DNA of 34,146 bases, from the NCBI GenBank assembly GCA_030647005.1, contig JAUSKG010000029.1, positions 1 through 34,146 of the forward strand. The letters are read 5' to 3'. The notes under the pieces are model-generated. The model searched no databases and was not told the DNA's origin. It saw only the letters and a list, made by a program, of their open reading frames with translations. The stretch's first letter is position 1. Each line of letters opens with the position of its first letter. Shown piece after piece: positions 2,638 through 24,957 of this stretch. Source of the DNA: a bacterium. GTDB lineage: Bacteria > Patescibacteriota > Patescibacteriia > JACPHY01. A program made the translations under genes and the position numbers.

Positions 2638-2991
2638 CTACGCGGCACGCGTCGCGTTGCTGACGATGACGAGCTTCGGTCGCGACGCGCGATGGCGCTC
2701 GACTTGCTGGTCAATGAATCCGAGCGCGCGTGCGATTCGCGTCGCCACGAGCTGGTCGAGCGCCCCGAAATGACGGGGATGGGTTGCTCGGATACGATCG
2801 GTCCATGCATCGAAGATGCCGCGGAGATCGTCCCCGAGATACAGCGGGGCACGCACGTCATCCACGACCGCAGCGACCTTCGGCCGCAGCTGGATGAGCT
2901 CCACCTGGAACGCGAACCAGCACGTGACGTCGTGTCCAACCGCTCCTTTCGCCTGTGAGCACTTCCTACACGGTTGTGGCTCTTGAGCCAT
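2638..2991 (-). CDS. Hypothetical protein with N-terminal Cys cluster (117 aa)
   Basis: The frame is open far upstream, but the start at 2991 (MAQEPQPCRKC) is chosen because AGGAG lies 8 bases before it and a near-consensus promoter lies further upstream. C8-x2-C11 with His20 and Cys24 could bind a metal. The rest is mainly alpha-helical with many Arg and Ala residues (GIFDAWTDRIRATHPRHFGALDQLVATRIARALGF has helix-like spacing, quoted here only by its ends GIFDAW and ARALGF). I do not recognise the family. It is transcribed alone, convergent with miaA. The 5' UTR of about 55 bases contains a small GGTCC/GGACC hairpin. A real, well-expressed gene is likely. Confidence 0.7.
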   Translation of the reverse strand: MAQEPQPCRKCSQAKGAVGHDVTCWFAFQVELIQLRPKVAAVVDDVRAPLYLGDDLRGIFDAWTDRIRATHPRHFGALDQLVATRIARALGFIDQQVERHRASRPKLVIVSNATRAA

Positions 2992-3052
2992 GGTTTTTCT
3001 CCTGTGCGGTGGGTCCGTTTTTGGACCGTTCAGCATCCACGCCGAACAATAA

Positions 3053-3081
3053 ATCCTAGCAGAAAGCAGTAGTTTTGTCAA
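3053..3081 (-). promoter_or_regulatory. Sigma70-like promoter of the 117-aa gene
   Basis: On the minus strand TTGACA (3081-3076) and TAGGAT (3058-3053) are separated by 17 bp. This is one of the best promoters in the window. Confidence 0.8.
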
Positions 3082-3142
3082 TCGAATATTCATTTTTTGT
3101 CTGTGTTGAGCCAAAATGAATAGCACCGACCTCTGTCCTCCA

Positions 3143-3327
3143 TCATTTCGACCGAAGCGAGTCCGCAATCCTCCCCCTTCCGTCATTTCGACCGACTGAG
3201 TCCTCGAGGGAGTGGAGAAATCTCATCCAACAGTACAAGCAACATCCTACTGCTCAACGAGATTTCTCCACTCGCGGACTCGGTCGAAATGACGGGGTTT
3301 TTTTGGGTTCGGTCGGTCGAAATGACG
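3143..3327. repeat. Nested GTCATTTCGACC inverted-repeat elements
   Basis: The inner element has CGTCATTTCGACC at 3181-3193 and GGTCGAAATGACG at 3282-3294, with internal GAGAAATCTC...GAGATTTCTC arms. An outer pair of the same ends occurs at 3143-3153 and 3315-3327, which suggests insertion of one copy into another. No gene is seen here. Confidence 0.75.
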
Positions 3328-3375
3328 AGAGAGGGCTGTGAGGATGCAGCTGCGAGGGGGTCAACCCCAAGGATA

Positions 3376-3409
3376 GAGAACAGCACCGACTTTTGTCGGT
3401 GCTGTTCTC
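3376..3409 (-). terminator. Terminator of the thyX-tmk-tk-gatB operon
   Basis: A perfect 15-bp stem (GAGAACAGCACCGAC with GTCGGTGCTGTTCTC) with a TTTT loop (plus-strand sense) begins 14 bases beyond the gatB stop. Confidence 0.75.
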
Positions 3410-3423
3410 GACGATCGTTCGTG

Positions 3424-4959
3424 CTACCGGAGACGTTCCTCCAGGAGTTCCTTGACCACCGCTGGATCCGCGGTGCCCTTGGTGGCCTTCATGACCTGTC
3501 CGAGGAGGAACTGGATCGCGTTGATTTTGCCGGATTTGTAGTCTGCGACGGATGCGGGGTTTTCGGCGATGGCGGCATCTACTGCGGAGGCGAGTGCGTC
3601 CGTGTCGGAGACCTGTGCGGTGCCCATCTCTTCGAGGAGCGTGTGCGGTTCGCCGCCGACGACGATCATCTGTTCGAGTATCTGTGTAGCGATCGTGGAG
3701 TTCACGCGGCGCGTGAGGAAGAGCTGGAGGAGCTCTGCGAAATTCTCCGGTGTCACCTTCGCGTCGCCAAACGTGATTTGCCGCGCGTTGAGGATGCCGA
3801 TCATCTTGGATGCGATCCATCCGCTCACGGTTTTTCCGGCCTTCAGGGTGAGCACTTCACACTGCGCGTCATCCTCTGCGGTATCCGCGCACCACTGCTG
3901 GAGCTCGGAGAAGACCTGCTCGGTGAAGGTTGCGATCACGGGGTCCTCCGTGAGCTGGAGGACATCCGTGGGAGTGATTTTGAGTTGCTCGACGAAGCGC
4001 GCGCGGCGCGCTGCGGGGAGTTCCGGCAGTGTTCCCCGGAGTACCTCCGGATCAATGGGCATTCCAGGGCCTGCGTGCACGGGAGGCAGATCCGGTTCCG
4101 GGAAGTAGCGGTAGTCGCCCTCGCCTTCTTTCCAGCGCTGCTCGACGGTCACCTGCTTTGCCTCGTTCCAGCCGCGCGTCGTGCTTGCCGCTGGCGGCGT
4201 ATTCGTTTGCCAGAGCTTGGTCTGGCGTTTGATCTCGTACTCGAGGCATCGCTCGACGTGCTTGAACGAGTTGACGTTCTTCACCTCGGTCTTCGGCCAG
4301 AGTCGCTCCTCGCCCATCGGGCGCAGCGAGATGTTCGCGTCGCAGCGGAGGTGCCCCTTCTCCATGTCGGCATCCGAGACGTTGAGGTAGCGCGCGATCA
4401 TCTGGAGTTCCTGGAGGTAGCGCTTCGCCTGCTGCGGCGTGCGGAAGTCCGCCTCGGTGACGATCTCCATGAGCGGGGTGCCGGCGCGGTTGTAGTCCAC
4501 GAGCGTCCAGTGTCGATCCCGCGAGTGCGTGTTCTTCGCGGCATCTTCCTCGAGGTGGAGGCGGTTGATGCGGATCGTTGCAGCACCCCCTCCAGTTCCC
4601 CCTCGAGAAGAGGGGGAGGGCACTTCGGGAATGTCCAGCGTGCCGTGGATGCCGATGGGGAGATCGTACTGCGAGATTTGGTATCCCTTCGGGAGGTCGG
4701 GGTAGAAGTAGCTCTTGCGATCCCACTTGAGGTGCTCGTTGATCGTGCAGCCGATCGCGAGCGCCATGCGCGTTGCGGATTCCACCGCAGCGCGGTTGAT
4801 GACCGGCAGCGTGCCCGGGTGGCCAGTGCAGATGGGACAGATCGTCGTGTTCGGCGGCTCGTACTCACCGCGATTGGAACACCCGCAGAACATTTTTGTC
4901 TGCGTCTTGAGCTGGATGTGACATTCGAGGCCGATGATTGTTTCGAGCTGCATATGCAT
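3424..4959 (-). CDS. gatB: Asp-tRNA(Asn)/Glu-tRNA(Gln) amidotransferase subunit B
   Basis: GatB is the kinase and tRNA-binding subunit of GatCAB. It activates misacylated Glu-tRNA(Gln) or Asp-tRNA(Asn) for amidation. The 511-residue protein begins with the family hallmark GLECHIQLKTQTKMFC, has paired zinc cysteines (CGCSNR and CPICTGHPG), HLEEDAAK, a DYNRAGTPLMEIVTE segment and RCDANISLRP, and ends with the helical GatB/YqeY tail. ATG 4959 and ATG 4953 are both possible starts. The gene starts 2 bases after the tk stop, so it is translationally coupled. Around residues 120-135 a palindromic repeat adds SPSSRGGTGGGAA between the DI strand and the IRINRLHLEEDA strand, in a loop where homologues are shorter. 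gatA and gatC are not in the window. Confidence 0.96.
   Translation of the reverse strand: MHMQLETIIGLECHIQLKTQTKMFCGCSNRGEYEPPNTTICPICTGHPGTLPVINRAAVESATRMALAIGCTINEHLKWDRKSYFYPDLPKGYQISQYDLPIGIHGTLDIPEVPSPSSRGGTGGGAATIRINRLHLEEDAAKNTHSRDRHWTLVDYNRAGTPLMEIVTEADFRTPQQAKRYLQELQMIARYLNVSDADMEKGHLRCDANISLRPMGEERLWPKTEVKNVNSFKHVERCLEYEIKRQTKLWQTNTPPAASTTRGWNEAKQVTVEQRWKEGEGDYRYFPEPDLPPVHAGPGMPIDPEVLRGTLPELPAARRARFVEQLKITPTDVLQLTEDPVIATFTEQVFSELQQWCADTAEDDAQCEVLTLKAGKTVSGWIASKMIGILNARQITFGDAKVTPENFAELLQLFLTRRVNSTIATQILEQMIVVGGEPHTLLEEMGTAQVSDTDALASAVDAAIAENPASVADYKSGKINAIQFLLGQVMKATKGTADPAVVKELLEERLR
4584..4618 (-). repeat. In-frame palindromic element inside gatB
   Basis: The CCCTCCCCCTCTTCTCGAGGG core is followed by GGGGGTG on the coding strand. 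It encodes SPSSRGG...GGG, the same frame as the copy at 334-368. It lies in a predicted surface loop of GatB. Confidence 0.8.
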
Positions 4960-20819: not shown

Positions 20820-20845
20820 ACACCACACCCGTCAGGGTGTGGTGT
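20820..20845. terminator. Shared terminator overlapping the prmC stop
   Basis: ACACCACACCC pairs with GGGTGTGGTGT around GTCA, placed 4 bases after the pilin-like stop. The last four prmC codons and its stop lie inside the stem. Confidence 0.7.
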
Positions 20846-21650
20846 GGAGTTCGAGGACGCGCCAGTGGCCGGCGAGGTCGCGGTGCCATGACGCTTGCCA
20901 GTGGGGGAGCGTTCGTGCGACGAGCGCTGCGAGCACATCCCTGCGACGGGGGTCTATTTCGAGGAGGGCCGTGCAGGGGGCACTGCGTCCCACCGCGAGT
21001 TCATGGAGCTGCGCGAAGAACGCGCGGTAGGGATCGAGACCGTCCGGGCCGCCATCAATCGCGATGCGCGGCTCGTAGTGTGTAATCGAGGAGGAGAGTG
21101 TGGGCCACTCGTCTGTGGTTCCGTACGGGAGGTTCGCGATGATGGTGAGCGGTGCGGTGCGGTCGAGGTCGTCGGGGGCTGCTGCGAGTGGCGCGAGGAG
21201 GTTCCCCGCGACGAACGTCATGCGCTCCGTCACGCGATGGCGCGTTGCGTTCGCTCGCGCGACGGCGAGTGCTGCCGGCGAGATGTCAATGGCGAGTACG
21301 CGCGCGTCCGCGATTTCCGCTGCGATCGTCACCGCGATTGCGCCCGATCCGGTTCCGACATCAACGAATTGATCGCTGTCCGCTCGCTCGAGTGCGAGCG
21401 TGATGAGCTGCTCGGTCTCCGGCCGCGGGATGAGCGTGTCGCGTGTCACGGTGAACGGACGGCCGTAGAACCACTGCTCGCCCAGGAGGTACGCGAGCGG
21501 CTCACCGGCATCGAGGCGCGCGATGAGCGCGTCGTAGTCCCGCTGCTGCGCGGCGGTGAGTGGCGTGTCGGGGTGCGTGAGTACCCACGTCTGGTCACGG
21601 CGCAGGACGTGTGCGAGGAGGTCTTGTCGTTTACGGATCATGTGCTCCAT
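20832..21650 (-). CDS. prmC: Peptide chain release factor methyltransferase PrmC
   Basis: PrmC methylates the Gln of the GGQ motif in release factors. The 272-residue protein has the N-terminal helical domain with PLAYLLGEQWFYGRPFTV and LIPRPETEQL, and a Rossmann-type SAM site (VDVGTGSGAIAVTIA about residue 97, VLAIDISPAALAVA). The catalytic substrate motif, normally NPPY, reads N173-L-P-Y176. The Gln-binding Asn and Tyr are kept, so activity is plausible. It is separated from prfA by about 2.1 kb on the same strand. MEHM gives two possible starts (21650 or 21641). Confidence 0.9.
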   Translation of the reverse strand: MEHMIRKRQDLLAHVLRRDQTWVLTHPDTPLTAAQQRDYDALIARLDAGEPLAYLLGEQWFYGRPFTVTRDTLIPRPETEQLITLALERADSDQFVDVGTGSGAIAVTIAAEIADARVLAIDISPAALAVARANATRHRVTERMTFVAGNLLAPLAAAPDDLDRTAPLTIIANLPYGTTDEWPTLSSSITHYEPRIAIDGGPDGLDPYRAFFAQLHELAVGRSAPCTALLEIDPRRRDVLAALVARTLPHWQASWHRDLAGHWRVLELHTTP

Positions 21651-21707: not shown

Positions 21708-22310
21708 CTAGGTCAGGAGCGGCGCGATGTCGGTGTCCCAGTGCCGCAGCGCGTCGAGCGCAGCCATGACTTCCAGGAGCGGTGCGAGGATCGTGGTGAC
21801 GTCGAGCCCTGTTTGGAACTTCACTTCATCAATGTCGAACATGCGTGCGCTCGCATCCGATACCGCCAATGTCAGCGTCTCGTTGGAGCGTGCGAGCGGA
21901 ACGATGTTCTTTCCGCACCAGAACTCCAGCGGAAACGTACGAACTGCTTCCGGCATCGGGATGCTGCTGAGAAGTGCAACCACCGCCGTGGGCTCCGACG
22001 GCTGCTCGTCTTTGAGCTCGCGCAGCCGTAGGTTGAACAGCTCGCTCCAGCGGGATTGCGCGGGATGGCTCACGGGGAGCCAGGGCCATCCGCGCGGTGG
22101 CGTGGGGTGTGGTCGCTCGCGCGCGTCATCGTCCGTGCTCCGCGGCGTGTGCGATTCGAGATCCTTCCCTCGAAGCTGCAAGAAGGTGTGGATGCACTGC
22201 ATGCATATGCGCGCGGTGGTGCTGCATACGACGAGTTGCTGCGTATCGGGGCCTCGATCGCAGAAGTCACACCACTTCTGCTGGGATACACGTCGTTGTG
22301 AACGAGCCAT
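21708..22310 (-). CDS. ClpX-type zinc finger fused to an MshEN domain
   Basis: The 200-residue protein starts at ATG 22310, with AGGAGG 8 bases upstream. Residues 14-39 form a C-x2-C-x18-C-x2-C zinc finger with the spacing of the ClpX N-terminal domain (CDFC ... ICMQC). A Pro/Arg-rich linker follows. Residues about 115-190 (IPMPEAVRTFPLEFW ... LTLAVSDASARMFDIDEVKF) match the MshEN domain found at the N-terminus of GspE/PilB ATPases, some of which bind cyclic di-GMP. There is no ATPase domain. It could act as an adaptor linking pili or secretion to proteolysis, but this is inference. It has its own promoter-like sequence downstream of the large RNA terminator. Confidence 0.7.
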   Translation of the reverse strand: MARSQRRVSQQKWCDFCDRGPDTQQLVVCSTTARICMQCIHTFLQLRGKDLESHTPRSTDDDARERPHPTPPRGWPWLPVSHPAQSRWSELFNLRLRELKDEQPSEPTAVVALLSSIPMPEAVRTFPLEFWCGKNIVPLARSNETLTLAVSDASARMFDIDEVKFQTGLDVTTILAPLLEVMAALDALRHWDTDIAPLLT

Positions 22311-22368
22311 TGGTCATACCTCCTCTGAAAGACACTACCGCATATCCACAGCCCTCGCAAGTGCAAAG

Positions 22369-22436
22369 GAAAAAGGGTGTCTCGGATCGGACGCCCACCG
22401 ATCACTCGGTGTGCGTCACGTTTCCGTGACACCCTT
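22369..22436 (-). terminator. Branched 3' domain and terminator of the large RNA
   Basis: On the minus strand AAGGGTGTC (22436-22428) pairs with GACACCCTT (22381-22373), followed by TTTTTCC. It encloses a small ACG-GAAA-CGT hairpin and a GACGC/GCGTC helix capped by CACCGA-GTGA-TCGGTG, forming a three-way junction with two GNRA loops. Confidence 0.7.
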
Positions 22437-23627
22437 CTTCATGCGGCACCCGCCTCTGCCGTTCCTTCCCAACGCTTGTAATTCCTTTCGAGGGGAAGTT
22501 CTGGCACTGCGCCTCCTAGTGCGCAGGGAGTGGGTGAGGTGGTCTCCTTTCGGAGCGCACCTCTGGAATCACGCCGTGCGTAATCACTTCAACCGCACGG
22601 TCGCATCGTCAGCTGTCTCTGCAGACGATCTAGGGAGATTCCCTTACGAACGTTCGATGACGTGGGAAGCCCACGAGCATCTTCAGTTCGCGACGGCAAC
22701 CACGCAACTTCCACAGACAGTACTGCACGTCCGTGTCGTTACTCGTGGTATGCTCACCGCTCTCGCTCGACGCCATGACTCCGGGAAACCCGAAGGGGAC
22801 ATCAAGCGTGCAGCCCTGCATCAGTGAACGTTGGTGAGACGACTCTCGTCAGAGCACCCACGCACACTATCACCGTCATTAACGACATCGCACAGCGGAT
22901 TCGCTGCACGAGATTTTTGGCAGCCAGTACATCGCGGGGCAAGCGGGCAGGACGTTACCGACCAAACTCGCTGACCCGTTGAGGCACTGCTCGACCCTTC
23001 GGTTCTCGGGCTCCGCTTGTTTCCAAGACAGAACGCGATCGCCGACCTCGTCGCCACGCTTTCGGCGTTGGCGGGGTCTTCAGCAAAACCTTGCACACCT
23101 CGCGGAATGGGGATCATCGTGGACGCAAGCGTCCATGAGTTCCTCCCCGTGAGGAGCAGTGCAGCGGTTGGTGAGCGATGACGAACTCCAGCGTTCACTG
23201 GTGCGCGTCACCGTGCGTCTCTCCAACATGCTCTTGCTTGTGGCGTGTCGGTATCCTCCAGGTTCCGGTTGCTGCCGGAGGTCCTAGGAGGCGCAGAGCT
23301 ACCGAGGTAGCCCCGATACCCGATTACCACTTTGCCTTGCATGCTCACGCATGCGGGCCAACCAGTTCTCCGTCATTCCCGGTGTAGCACACCGGCATCC
23401 ATGGCTCCCGCCGGAGCGCGTAATGGATGGACGGTTGCTGACACCCCGCGGTTACCCGCAGGTGATCCGTTCGCCGTTCGTCGTCACGTTCCAGTTTCTT
23501 TTCAGAAATTTGGAGGCGCAACGATTGCAACGCGAGCTTCGGGACCCTGTCCCTCACCCGCGCCGCCGACACCGCGGACTCTGGCTGTCAATCTTTTGCA
23601 AAAGATCGAGACGCTCCGAGAGCGACA
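22369..23627 (-). ncRNA. Candidate large structured non-coding RNA (about 1.26 kb)
   Basis: No ORF here looks coding: frames on both strands are short, lack ribosome binding sites and have no recognisable motifs. Instead, local perfect hairpins follow one another, many with GNRA loops when read on the minus strand. Examples are GCATGC-GTGA-GCATGC (23354-23339), CCGGTGT/ACACCGG (23395-23379), GCTACC/GGTAGC (23311-23298), GGACGC/GCGTCC (23134-23121), an arm with a GAAA loop (23073-23052), CGTGGG/CCCACG (22675-22661), ATCGTC/GACGAT (22629-22605), CCGTGCG/CGCACGG (22600-22574), GAGGTG-CTCC-GAAA-GGAG-CACCTC (22563-22536, with an internal loop) and CTGCGC/GCGCAG (22526-22507). A promoter and a T-run terminator bound the unit. 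Conserved motifs of RNase P RNA, tmRNA, SRP RNA and rRNA were not found. The only ORF of note inside is 63 codons (22821-22630), with no support. Ends are predictions. Confidence 0.6.
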
Positions 23628-23633
23628 ATATCC

Positions 23634-23661
23634 AATGTACATGCCGTATAAACGCCGTCAA
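23634..23661 (-). promoter_or_regulatory. Promoter of the large RNA
   Basis: On the minus strand TTGACG (23661-23656) and TACATT (23639-23634) with a 16-bp spacer. A start near 23627 is predicted. Confidence 0.6.
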
Positions 23662-23721
23662 ATGCATTGGTGTGGATAACTTGAACGAGAGAACGTGCGT
23701 GTATAAAAAGTATAGAAGTAC

Positions 23722-23790
23722 TGTCATTGCGAGCCCGAGACCATGAGGGCGTGGCAATCTCTCCATTTGTATCGTGTGAGATTGCCACGT
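23722..23790. repeat. Partial TGTCATTGCGAG element after prfA
   Basis: The left end TGTCATTGCGAG (23722) and inner arms CGTGGCAATCTC (23750-23761) / GAGATTGCCACG (23778-23789) are intact, but the right terminal end is missing. The inner hairpin can serve as the prfA terminator. Confidence 0.7.
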
Positions 23791-23818
23791 CGCGAGCGGA
23801 GCGGGAGGTGGGCCGTCC

Positions 23819-24862
23819 TCACGCGGCCTTCTTCGCTGCCTCACGGATATCGCTGAGCATCTCCTCGATGTCGCCGTCGAGAATTTTTTCGATGTTGTGC
23901 CACGTCTGCTTGATGCGGTGATCGGTGATGCGATCCTGGGGAATGTTGTACGTCCGAATTTTCTCAGACCGTTCGCCGGTGCCGATTTGGCCCTTGCGCG
24001 CTTCGGAGCGTTCGCGCTGCGCGCGTTCGCGCTCGATCGCATAGAGACGCGCACGCAGTACCTCCATCGCACGGATGCGGTTCTGTTTCTGTGAGCGTTC
24101 GTCCTGGCACGTGACGACGATGCCCGTCGGGAGGTGCGTGAGGCGAATCGCGGAGTACGTCGTGTTCACGGACTGCCCGCCGGCGCCGCTCGCGGTCATG
24201 GCGTCAATCTTGAGGTCCTTGGGATCGATGGTGATGTCCACCTCCTCCGCCTTCGGGAGTACGGCGACCGTGGCGGTTGAGGTGTGGACGCGGCCGGCCT
24301 TCTCGGTTTCGGGAACACGCTGGACGCGGTGGACGCCGCTCTCGAACTTCAGCCAGCGGTAGACCCGTTCGCCTTCAACGGTGAACATGGCACTCGTCAT
24401 GCCGCCGAGGTCGTTGTGCGCCGCGTGGAGCGTGCGCATCGCCCATCCCTTGCGTTCGGCAAATCGCGCGTACATGCGGAAGAGGTCGGCGGCGAACAGC
24501 GCGGCCTCATCACCACCGACACCGGCGCGGATCTCCACGACGATGTCCCGATCATCCTCCGGATCACCCGGCTCGAGGATCTCCGCGAGTGCCGCAGCGA
24601 CGCGCTCTCGTTCCGCCGTGGCGGTCTGGAGCTCCTCCTCACCGAGCGCGCGGAGCTCCTCCTCGTCGGCACTCGCCGCCTCATGCGCCTCGGCGATGGT
24701 GCGATCGAGTCGTGTGATGGCGTCCACGAGTTCGAGTGCCTTGCGCGTGGCCGCGTGCGCACGCGACACGACGGCGAGCCGTTGGTGGTCGCCGATGATC
24801 GCGGGGTCCTGGAGCTGTCGTTCGAGGTCCTCGTGTTTCGCCTTGAGTTCCTGTGCATCCAT
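23819..24862 (-). CDS. prfA: Peptide chain release factor 1
   Basis: RF1 ends translation at UAA and UAG. The 347-residue protein starts at [17 protein letters not shown] (ATG 24862); an in-frame upstream ATG adds non-conserved residues. The GGQ catalytic motif is present ([20 protein letters not shown], 20 residues), as is the RF1-type [11 protein letters not shown] segment. Coiled N-terminal helices and the anticodon-like domain precede it. Its neighbour upstream is rpmE, as in many bacteria, but prmC is not directly downstream. A hairpin at 24906 lies between rpmE and prfA, with a possible TATGCT -10 about 35 bases before the start. Confidence 0.96.
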
Positions 24863-24905
24863 AGGGTGCTGTCTGTCGTTCTCTCCAGCATACCGCAGAA
24901 CGGAA

Positions 24906-24929
24906 GAATCGAGGCGCATGCCTCGATTC
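24906..24929 (-). terminator. Hairpin between rpmE and prfA
   Basis: GAATCGAGGC and GCCTCGATTC form a perfect 10-bp stem with a GCAT loop, 29 bases beyond the rpmE stop. It may only partly terminate, letting prfA be co-transcribed. Confidence 0.65.
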
Positions 24930-24957
24930 CTCGCCACCGTGCTCGGTGGGCATGTAC

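Follow-up and report, generated by a model that had tools for sequence, protein, structure and literature searches.

Giant structured RNAs are few among bacteria, and OLE, ROOL and GOLLD each opened a field of study. GOLLD (RF02032), many examples of which exceed 800 nt, is found in phages and prophages near tRNAs, and ROOL (RF03087) is linked to phages and prophages as well (PMC12286853); OLE (RF01071) is about 600 nt long and occurs mostly in Bacillota (PMC9723947, PMC12054373). For the Patescibacteria, our searches of the open-access literature turned up no account of giant RNAs. Existing RNA-discovery pipelines depend on similarity at BLAST level and cut down candidates longer than 1000 nt (PMC2864571), and a class of such RNAs would have been overlooked so far for these reasons.

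The window analyzed here is the whole 34,146-nt contig (C29) in a Patescibacteria genome of 1.06 Mb (G000), for which the closest named prfA relatives come from Uhrbacteria, Kerfeldbacteria and Veblenbacteria. The minus strand of 22366–23627 is non-coding, structured and bounded by a promoter and a terminator. From the missing coding signal, a folding z score of −7.9 and its position as an outlier among random windows, we predict a giant non-coding RNA of about 1.26 kb. Like GOLLD, the unit is giant, highly structured, non-coding and of unknown biochemical role, but it is longer and has no Rfam match up to an E value of 10. The phage or prophage site, often near tRNA islands, that marks GOLLD and ROOL is not what we observe: the unit lies in a housekeeping cluster (the window carries ftsW, gyrB, gap and eno besides L31, prfA and prmC), with no tRNA in the window and no phage or plasmid match. 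ROOL resembles the class proposed below as a large ornate RNA that changes fast in sequence while its helices are kept, but the unit has no Rfam match to it and differs in size and locus. OLE shares with the unit a chromosomal location, a large size and a possible role as an RNP scaffold, but here too an Rfam match is lacking. An earlier sequence-only reading of the window had judged the unit larger than these three RNAs, and it does exceed the typical lengths of GOLLD and OLE. If a class of such RNAs exists in Patescibacteria, host-dependent bacteria with genomes of about 1 Mb keep an RNA that exceeds most of their genes in length, which would point strongly to an important and as yet unknown function.

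The Rfam comparison that the earlier reading had called for matched no family. In a search of the unit with the Rfam 15 covariance models, no match reached the gathering score; those at E values up to 10 are attributable to chance, the best of them (E = 0.0056) being to a eukaryotic IRES far under its gathering score. The earlier finding of no hallmarks of RNase P RNA, tmRNA, SRP RNA or rRNA is borne out, and the RNase P RNA, two tmRNAs and the 16S, 23S and 5S rRNAs of G000 are all located outside the unit. We set aside an SRP RNA hidden in the unit as one there is no reason to expect: the small and large bacterial SRP RNAs and the Ffh M domain (PF02978) were undetectable in seven genomes of the class (G000–G006), in which controls were detected, and the SRP pathway seems to be absent from these seven.

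Boundaries and predicted fold of the unit

A consensus scan recovers the sigma-70-type promoter proposed by the sequence-only reading, TTGACG-16-TACATT, at 23661–23634 on the minus strand, and the predicted RNA start lies 7 nt past it. Two promoter-like sites occur in 2.4 kb, compared with 0.5 in shuffled sequence. Nine base pairs upstream of the −35 hexamer lies a TTATCCACA box (23679–23671), whose letters are those of a DnaA box; box and −35 hexamer together span 23679–23656 on the minus strand and form the sole exact match to TTATCCACAN{5,10}TTGACG in the genome. At the other end, the predicted T-run terminator consists of an inner hairpin and T run within 22440–22369 (p 0.96 and 0.99), with arms 22440–22423/22386–22369 followed by the T run. 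Six-frame codon log-likelihoods across 22300–23800 are near zero or negative, against +0.14 to +0.36 for real genes, and there is no coding signal whether the codon model is trained on G000 or on its congener G001. A Pfam search of the unit returned no match above the cut-off, and on these two grounds we reject a protein-coding reading, in agreement with the earlier view that the unit holds no convincing ORF.

The minus strand has a minimum free energy of −597.6 kcal/mol compared with −504.6 ± 11.8 kcal/mol in dinucleotide shuffles (z −7.9), and the plus strand reaches z −6.4 in the same kind of test. On a scaled fold score the unit stands at −7.7, against a mean of −1.4 (SD 1.6, minimum −5.9) for 50 stretches of 1259 nt drawn at random from G000; as yardsticks, coding genes score −0.2 to −1.7, 16S rRNA −2.8 and RNase P RNA −8.6. 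Many of the helices have predicted pair probabilities above 0.9, among them all three perfect hairpins singled out earlier: GCATGC-GTGA-GCATGC (23354–23339, p 0.99), CTCC-GAAA-GGAG (22555–22544, p 1.00) and CACCGA-GTGA-TCGGTG, which sits within the terminator structure (p 0.99). Their GNRA-type loops had been taken to favor the minus strand; the loops alone are insufficient to fix the strand, but folding energy, promoter and terminator agree on the minus strand.

Two long-range features escaped the sequence-only reading. Single-sequence prediction places a 5′ domain (23587–22921) inside a closing helix, 23587–23581/22927–22921 (CAGCCAG/CTGGCTG, p 1.00), which spans 666 nt and is extended by 23579–23572/22937–22931 with a probability of 0.75. 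In addition, a 13-bp perfect complementarity joins 23296–23284 to 22519–22507 (15 of 16 paired). The 3′ half overlaps a local hairpin at 22526–22507, and the match competes with local hairpins such that enforcing it costs 6.4 kcal/mol; it may represent an alternative fold or helix, or a pseudoknot. The earlier interpretation of a giant structured RNA holds insofar as the unit is protein-free, bounded, structured and outside Rfam. The specific closing of the 5′ and 3′ ends by GTCTCGATC/GATCCGAGAC is not borne out: a local hairpin is favored at the 5′ segment (p 0.83), and the 3′ segment forms an arm of the terminator (p 0.96).

The prfA–prmC junction and the search for relatives

Gene order on the minus strand, assigned by Pfam, is L31, prfA (23819–24937; release factor 1, with PCRF and RF-1 domains), the 1.26-kb unit, an MshEN-domain gene (21708–22310) and prmC (20832–21650). 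In most Patescibacteria loci that we fetched around prfA, prfA and prmC lie within about 250 bp of one another, and in the two nearest relatives (G001 and G002) they are adjacent with a gap of about 80–120 bp, so the unit and the MshEN gene are extra in the lineage of the window. The MshEN-domain protein carries two N-terminal Cys-x2-Cys pairs; it has no relatives in GTDB contigs, viral contigs or G001 (by tblastn in the last case), and we dropped it as an anchor for locus searches. A REP-like interspersed palindrome (CGTGGCAATCTC..GAGATTGCCACG) occurs in the window at 23720–23800, 848–1361 and 2956–3429, as well as at L066 in G001, and is repeated in both species.

By BLASTN and nhmmer, the unit has no alignable homologue in the whole of G001, in about 95% of G000, where repeat copies are likewise absent, or in 38 relatives. 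Searches of 381 genomes of the class, 380 of the phylum, phages and plasmids yielded only chance matches of 22–33 nt, some of them in dnaE-like and valS-like reading frames; 17-mers of the unit fall in five viral contigs by chance, with no alignment around them. The same method recovered the RNase P RNA, one tmRNA and a 400-nt RNA of G000 in G001. The unit is missing from the prfA–prmC locus of G001 and G002 and, judged by sequence search, from the rest of G001 as well. One ORF-free stretch of about 1 kb in G001 (L075:9385–10375) follows TTGACA-N17-TATGCT, with no TTATCCACA box, and is a possible counterpart of the unit at another locus; further long non-coding stretches in G001 fold well too.

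The same junction is occupied in a genus of Uhrbacteria (g184), where four loci (L191, L194, L204 and L207) have the order prfA, an NTP-transferase gene, an ORF-free unit of 0.6–0.8 kb, a terminator and prmC. These units have a conserved promoter and a GAGACTC..GGGTCTC-T(n) terminator right ahead of prmC, and they match no Rfam family. Comparable ORF-free gaps occur at L218, which belongs to a different genus within that family, and at L197. The g184 alignment of four sequences contains 152 consensus pairs with 94.9% of cells paired, in a structure derived from that same alignment. Its energy is −96 kcal/mol compared with −33 ± 5 kcal/mol for column shuffles (z −11.5). Pairs in which both partners have changed number 30, against 12.5 ± 2.5 expected, a count reached in none of 500 shuffles, and 3–5 in slid controls, a test on four sequences that is below R-scape grade and takes its structure from the alignment under test. 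The double changes are scattered across many helices, one of them of 19 bp, and make for clear covariation in this comparison of sequences. Like the window unit, the g184 RNA combines the prfA–prmC junction, the promoter box, a terminator, the lack of an ORF and strong structure. The two differ in size (0.6–0.8 kb versus 1.26 kb), in having no alignable sequence in common and in their neighbors, with the NTP-transferase gene upstream of the g184 RNA and the MshEN gene downstream of the window RNA. Another type of insert between prfA and prmC is a SAM riboswitch (RF00162) in G024 (L038:4932–5116, minus strand).

A promoter type shared by ORF-free units

The window unit and the g184 RNAs share the arrangement TTATCCACA-N8/9-TTGACG, which occurs in exact form once in G000, at the unit. 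Across 363 genomes of the class we counted 105 sites of the TTATCCACA...TTGACG type compared with 4 for a reversed control, which indicates a real promoter type. Many genomes also have this promoter in front of lexA; it is thus not specific to RNA units, and we rejected the box as an RNA marker on this ground. In the lexA promoters (L213, L216, L220 and L261–L275) the arrangement reads TTATCCACA-N8/9-TTGACGTTCGG-TTTTT-GTTCGG-TATAAT, with the DnaA-box-like element beside a repeated GTTCGG that is possibly the LexA operator of the group.

Anchoring the search on this promoter is a practical route to more such RNAs. Family f22 has the promoter in front of ORF-free, terminator-bounded units of 0.7–1.1 kb at other loci, several of which face a gene on the opposite strand. 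Within family f16, L219 (in G155) contains a unit as long as 1.2 kb that has z −10.5 on the promoter strand versus −4.0 on the other, and the same locus in G017 (L276) has a unit of 0.7 kb; both lie upstream of a gene for an FWWY-motif protein. Most units behind the promoter fold significantly better on the promoter strand. The predicted 5′ end of several lies at or near the 5′ half of a helix enclosing a large domain, a layout comparable, as far as prediction goes, to that of the window RNA.

Sequence is lost quickly among these units. One f22 member (L226) aligns to its congener over only the first 149 and the last 66 nt, the g184 RNA did not turn up in its family (f46) outside its own genus, and f22 members show no similarity to the g184 profile. 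The window unit has TTATCCACA-N7..10-TTGACG directly upstream, is at least 0.6 kb long, lacks an ORF, folds strongly on the promoter strand and ends in an intrinsic terminator, the features by which we delimit the proposed class; an nhmmer profile of the g184 RNAs shows no similarity to it. Because sequence is lost within a genus of f22 and between f46 genera, this missing match is weak evidence against kinship.

A probable trans-acting RNA and its alternatives

We consider it the best explanation, at a probability of roughly 60%, that the window encodes a giant RNA that stands alone and acts in trans, and that probably represents an undescribed, rapidly diverging class in Patescibacteria; it would have a scaffold-like role. 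A minus-strand RNA of about 1.26 kb would start at its own promoter and end at its own intrinsic terminator inside the prfA–prmC cluster, and would fold into large domains closed by long-range helices. Its own promoter and terminator, together with the changing and opposite-strand neighbors of its putative counterparts, argue for a trans-acting RNA rather than a leader. The class would comprise giant RNAs of 0.6–1.2 kb behind the TTATCCACA-N8/9-TTGACG promoter whose helices are kept even where sequence is lost within a genus, and which move from locus to locus. Loss of sequence with retention of helices implies that shape matters and not a fixed catalytic core; our best guess is therefore a scaffold that works by shape in the manner of OLE, ROOL or GOLLD, whether as an RNP or as an oligomer of RNA alone; it would be neither a leader nor a ribozyme with a conserved core. 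The identity of the promoter box with a DnaA box suggests that activation may be linked to growth or to DNA damage. Against this explanation, the window RNA is without an alignable homologue even by profiles, and the covariation support comes from g184; the window copy is placed in the class provisionally, by its promoter, position and size and not by its sequence. The lack of the unit in the nearest relatives, the use of the promoter box by lexA and the good folding of other long non-coding stretches in G001 also count against it. More tentatively, and at slightly less than even odds, the class may be a widespread and undescribed one of 0.6–1.3-kb RNAs in ultra-small Patescibacteria, with a DnaA-box-like activated promoter shared with lexA, failure of sequence search within genera, shifts of locus between families and a role as trans-acting scaffolds or RNA-only assemblies.

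The alternative that survives best is a genuine giant RNA confined to this lineage and unrelated to those of Uhrbacteria, f22 and f16, with promoter and locus shared by coincidence, for instance because promoters of this type are common and the prfA–prmC junction is a hot spot for insertions. The lack of sequence similarity, the absence of the unit from G001 and G002, the use of the same box by lexA and the different inserts found at the junction in other genomes are all consistent with it. We nevertheless regard it as unlikely, since the box is unique in G000 and located exactly at the promoter of the RNA, and since the losses of sequence within f22 and between f46 genera make missing similarity expected.

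Far less probable is a very long 5′ leader or attenuator of the MshEN gene and prmC, acting like a riboswitch through a conditional terminator. The 13-bp alternative pairing could serve as such a switch, and the downstream gene is co-oriented in the window, f46 and f16; yet the downstream gene varies between families, the f22 units that face an opposite-strand gene could not be leaders there, and no Rfam riboswitch model matches. We consider marginally less probable still a non-functional, decayed or mobile palindrome-rich (REP-like) sequence that folds well on either strand, for although good folding is seen on the plus strand too (z −6.4), REP-like palindromes adjoin the unit (23720–23800) and recur in other gaps, and the unit is an insert when compared with G001 and G002, it has no repeat copies in its genome, its high pair probabilities extend over long spans with promoter and terminator at the correct ends, and its counterparts elsewhere show covariation.

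Further non-coding genes came to light in these genomes. G000 has two tmRNA genes (L136:18154–18515 and L120:4926–5326), the lower-scoring of which is the only one matched in G001, and two group I introns (L165:4814–5043 and L145:750–1035), one next to the 16S rRNA gene and the other inside the 23S rRNA gene. An RNA-like gene of 375–425 nt is shared by G000 (L164:7610–8035) and G001 (L099:4030–4404; nhmmer E = 2.4e-12). With no Rfam match, a TTGACA..TATA(C/A)T promoter, a conserved AGAGGAGAGAGCCC and a CTCCCTCCTCG terminator, it appears to be a second unnamed structured RNA.
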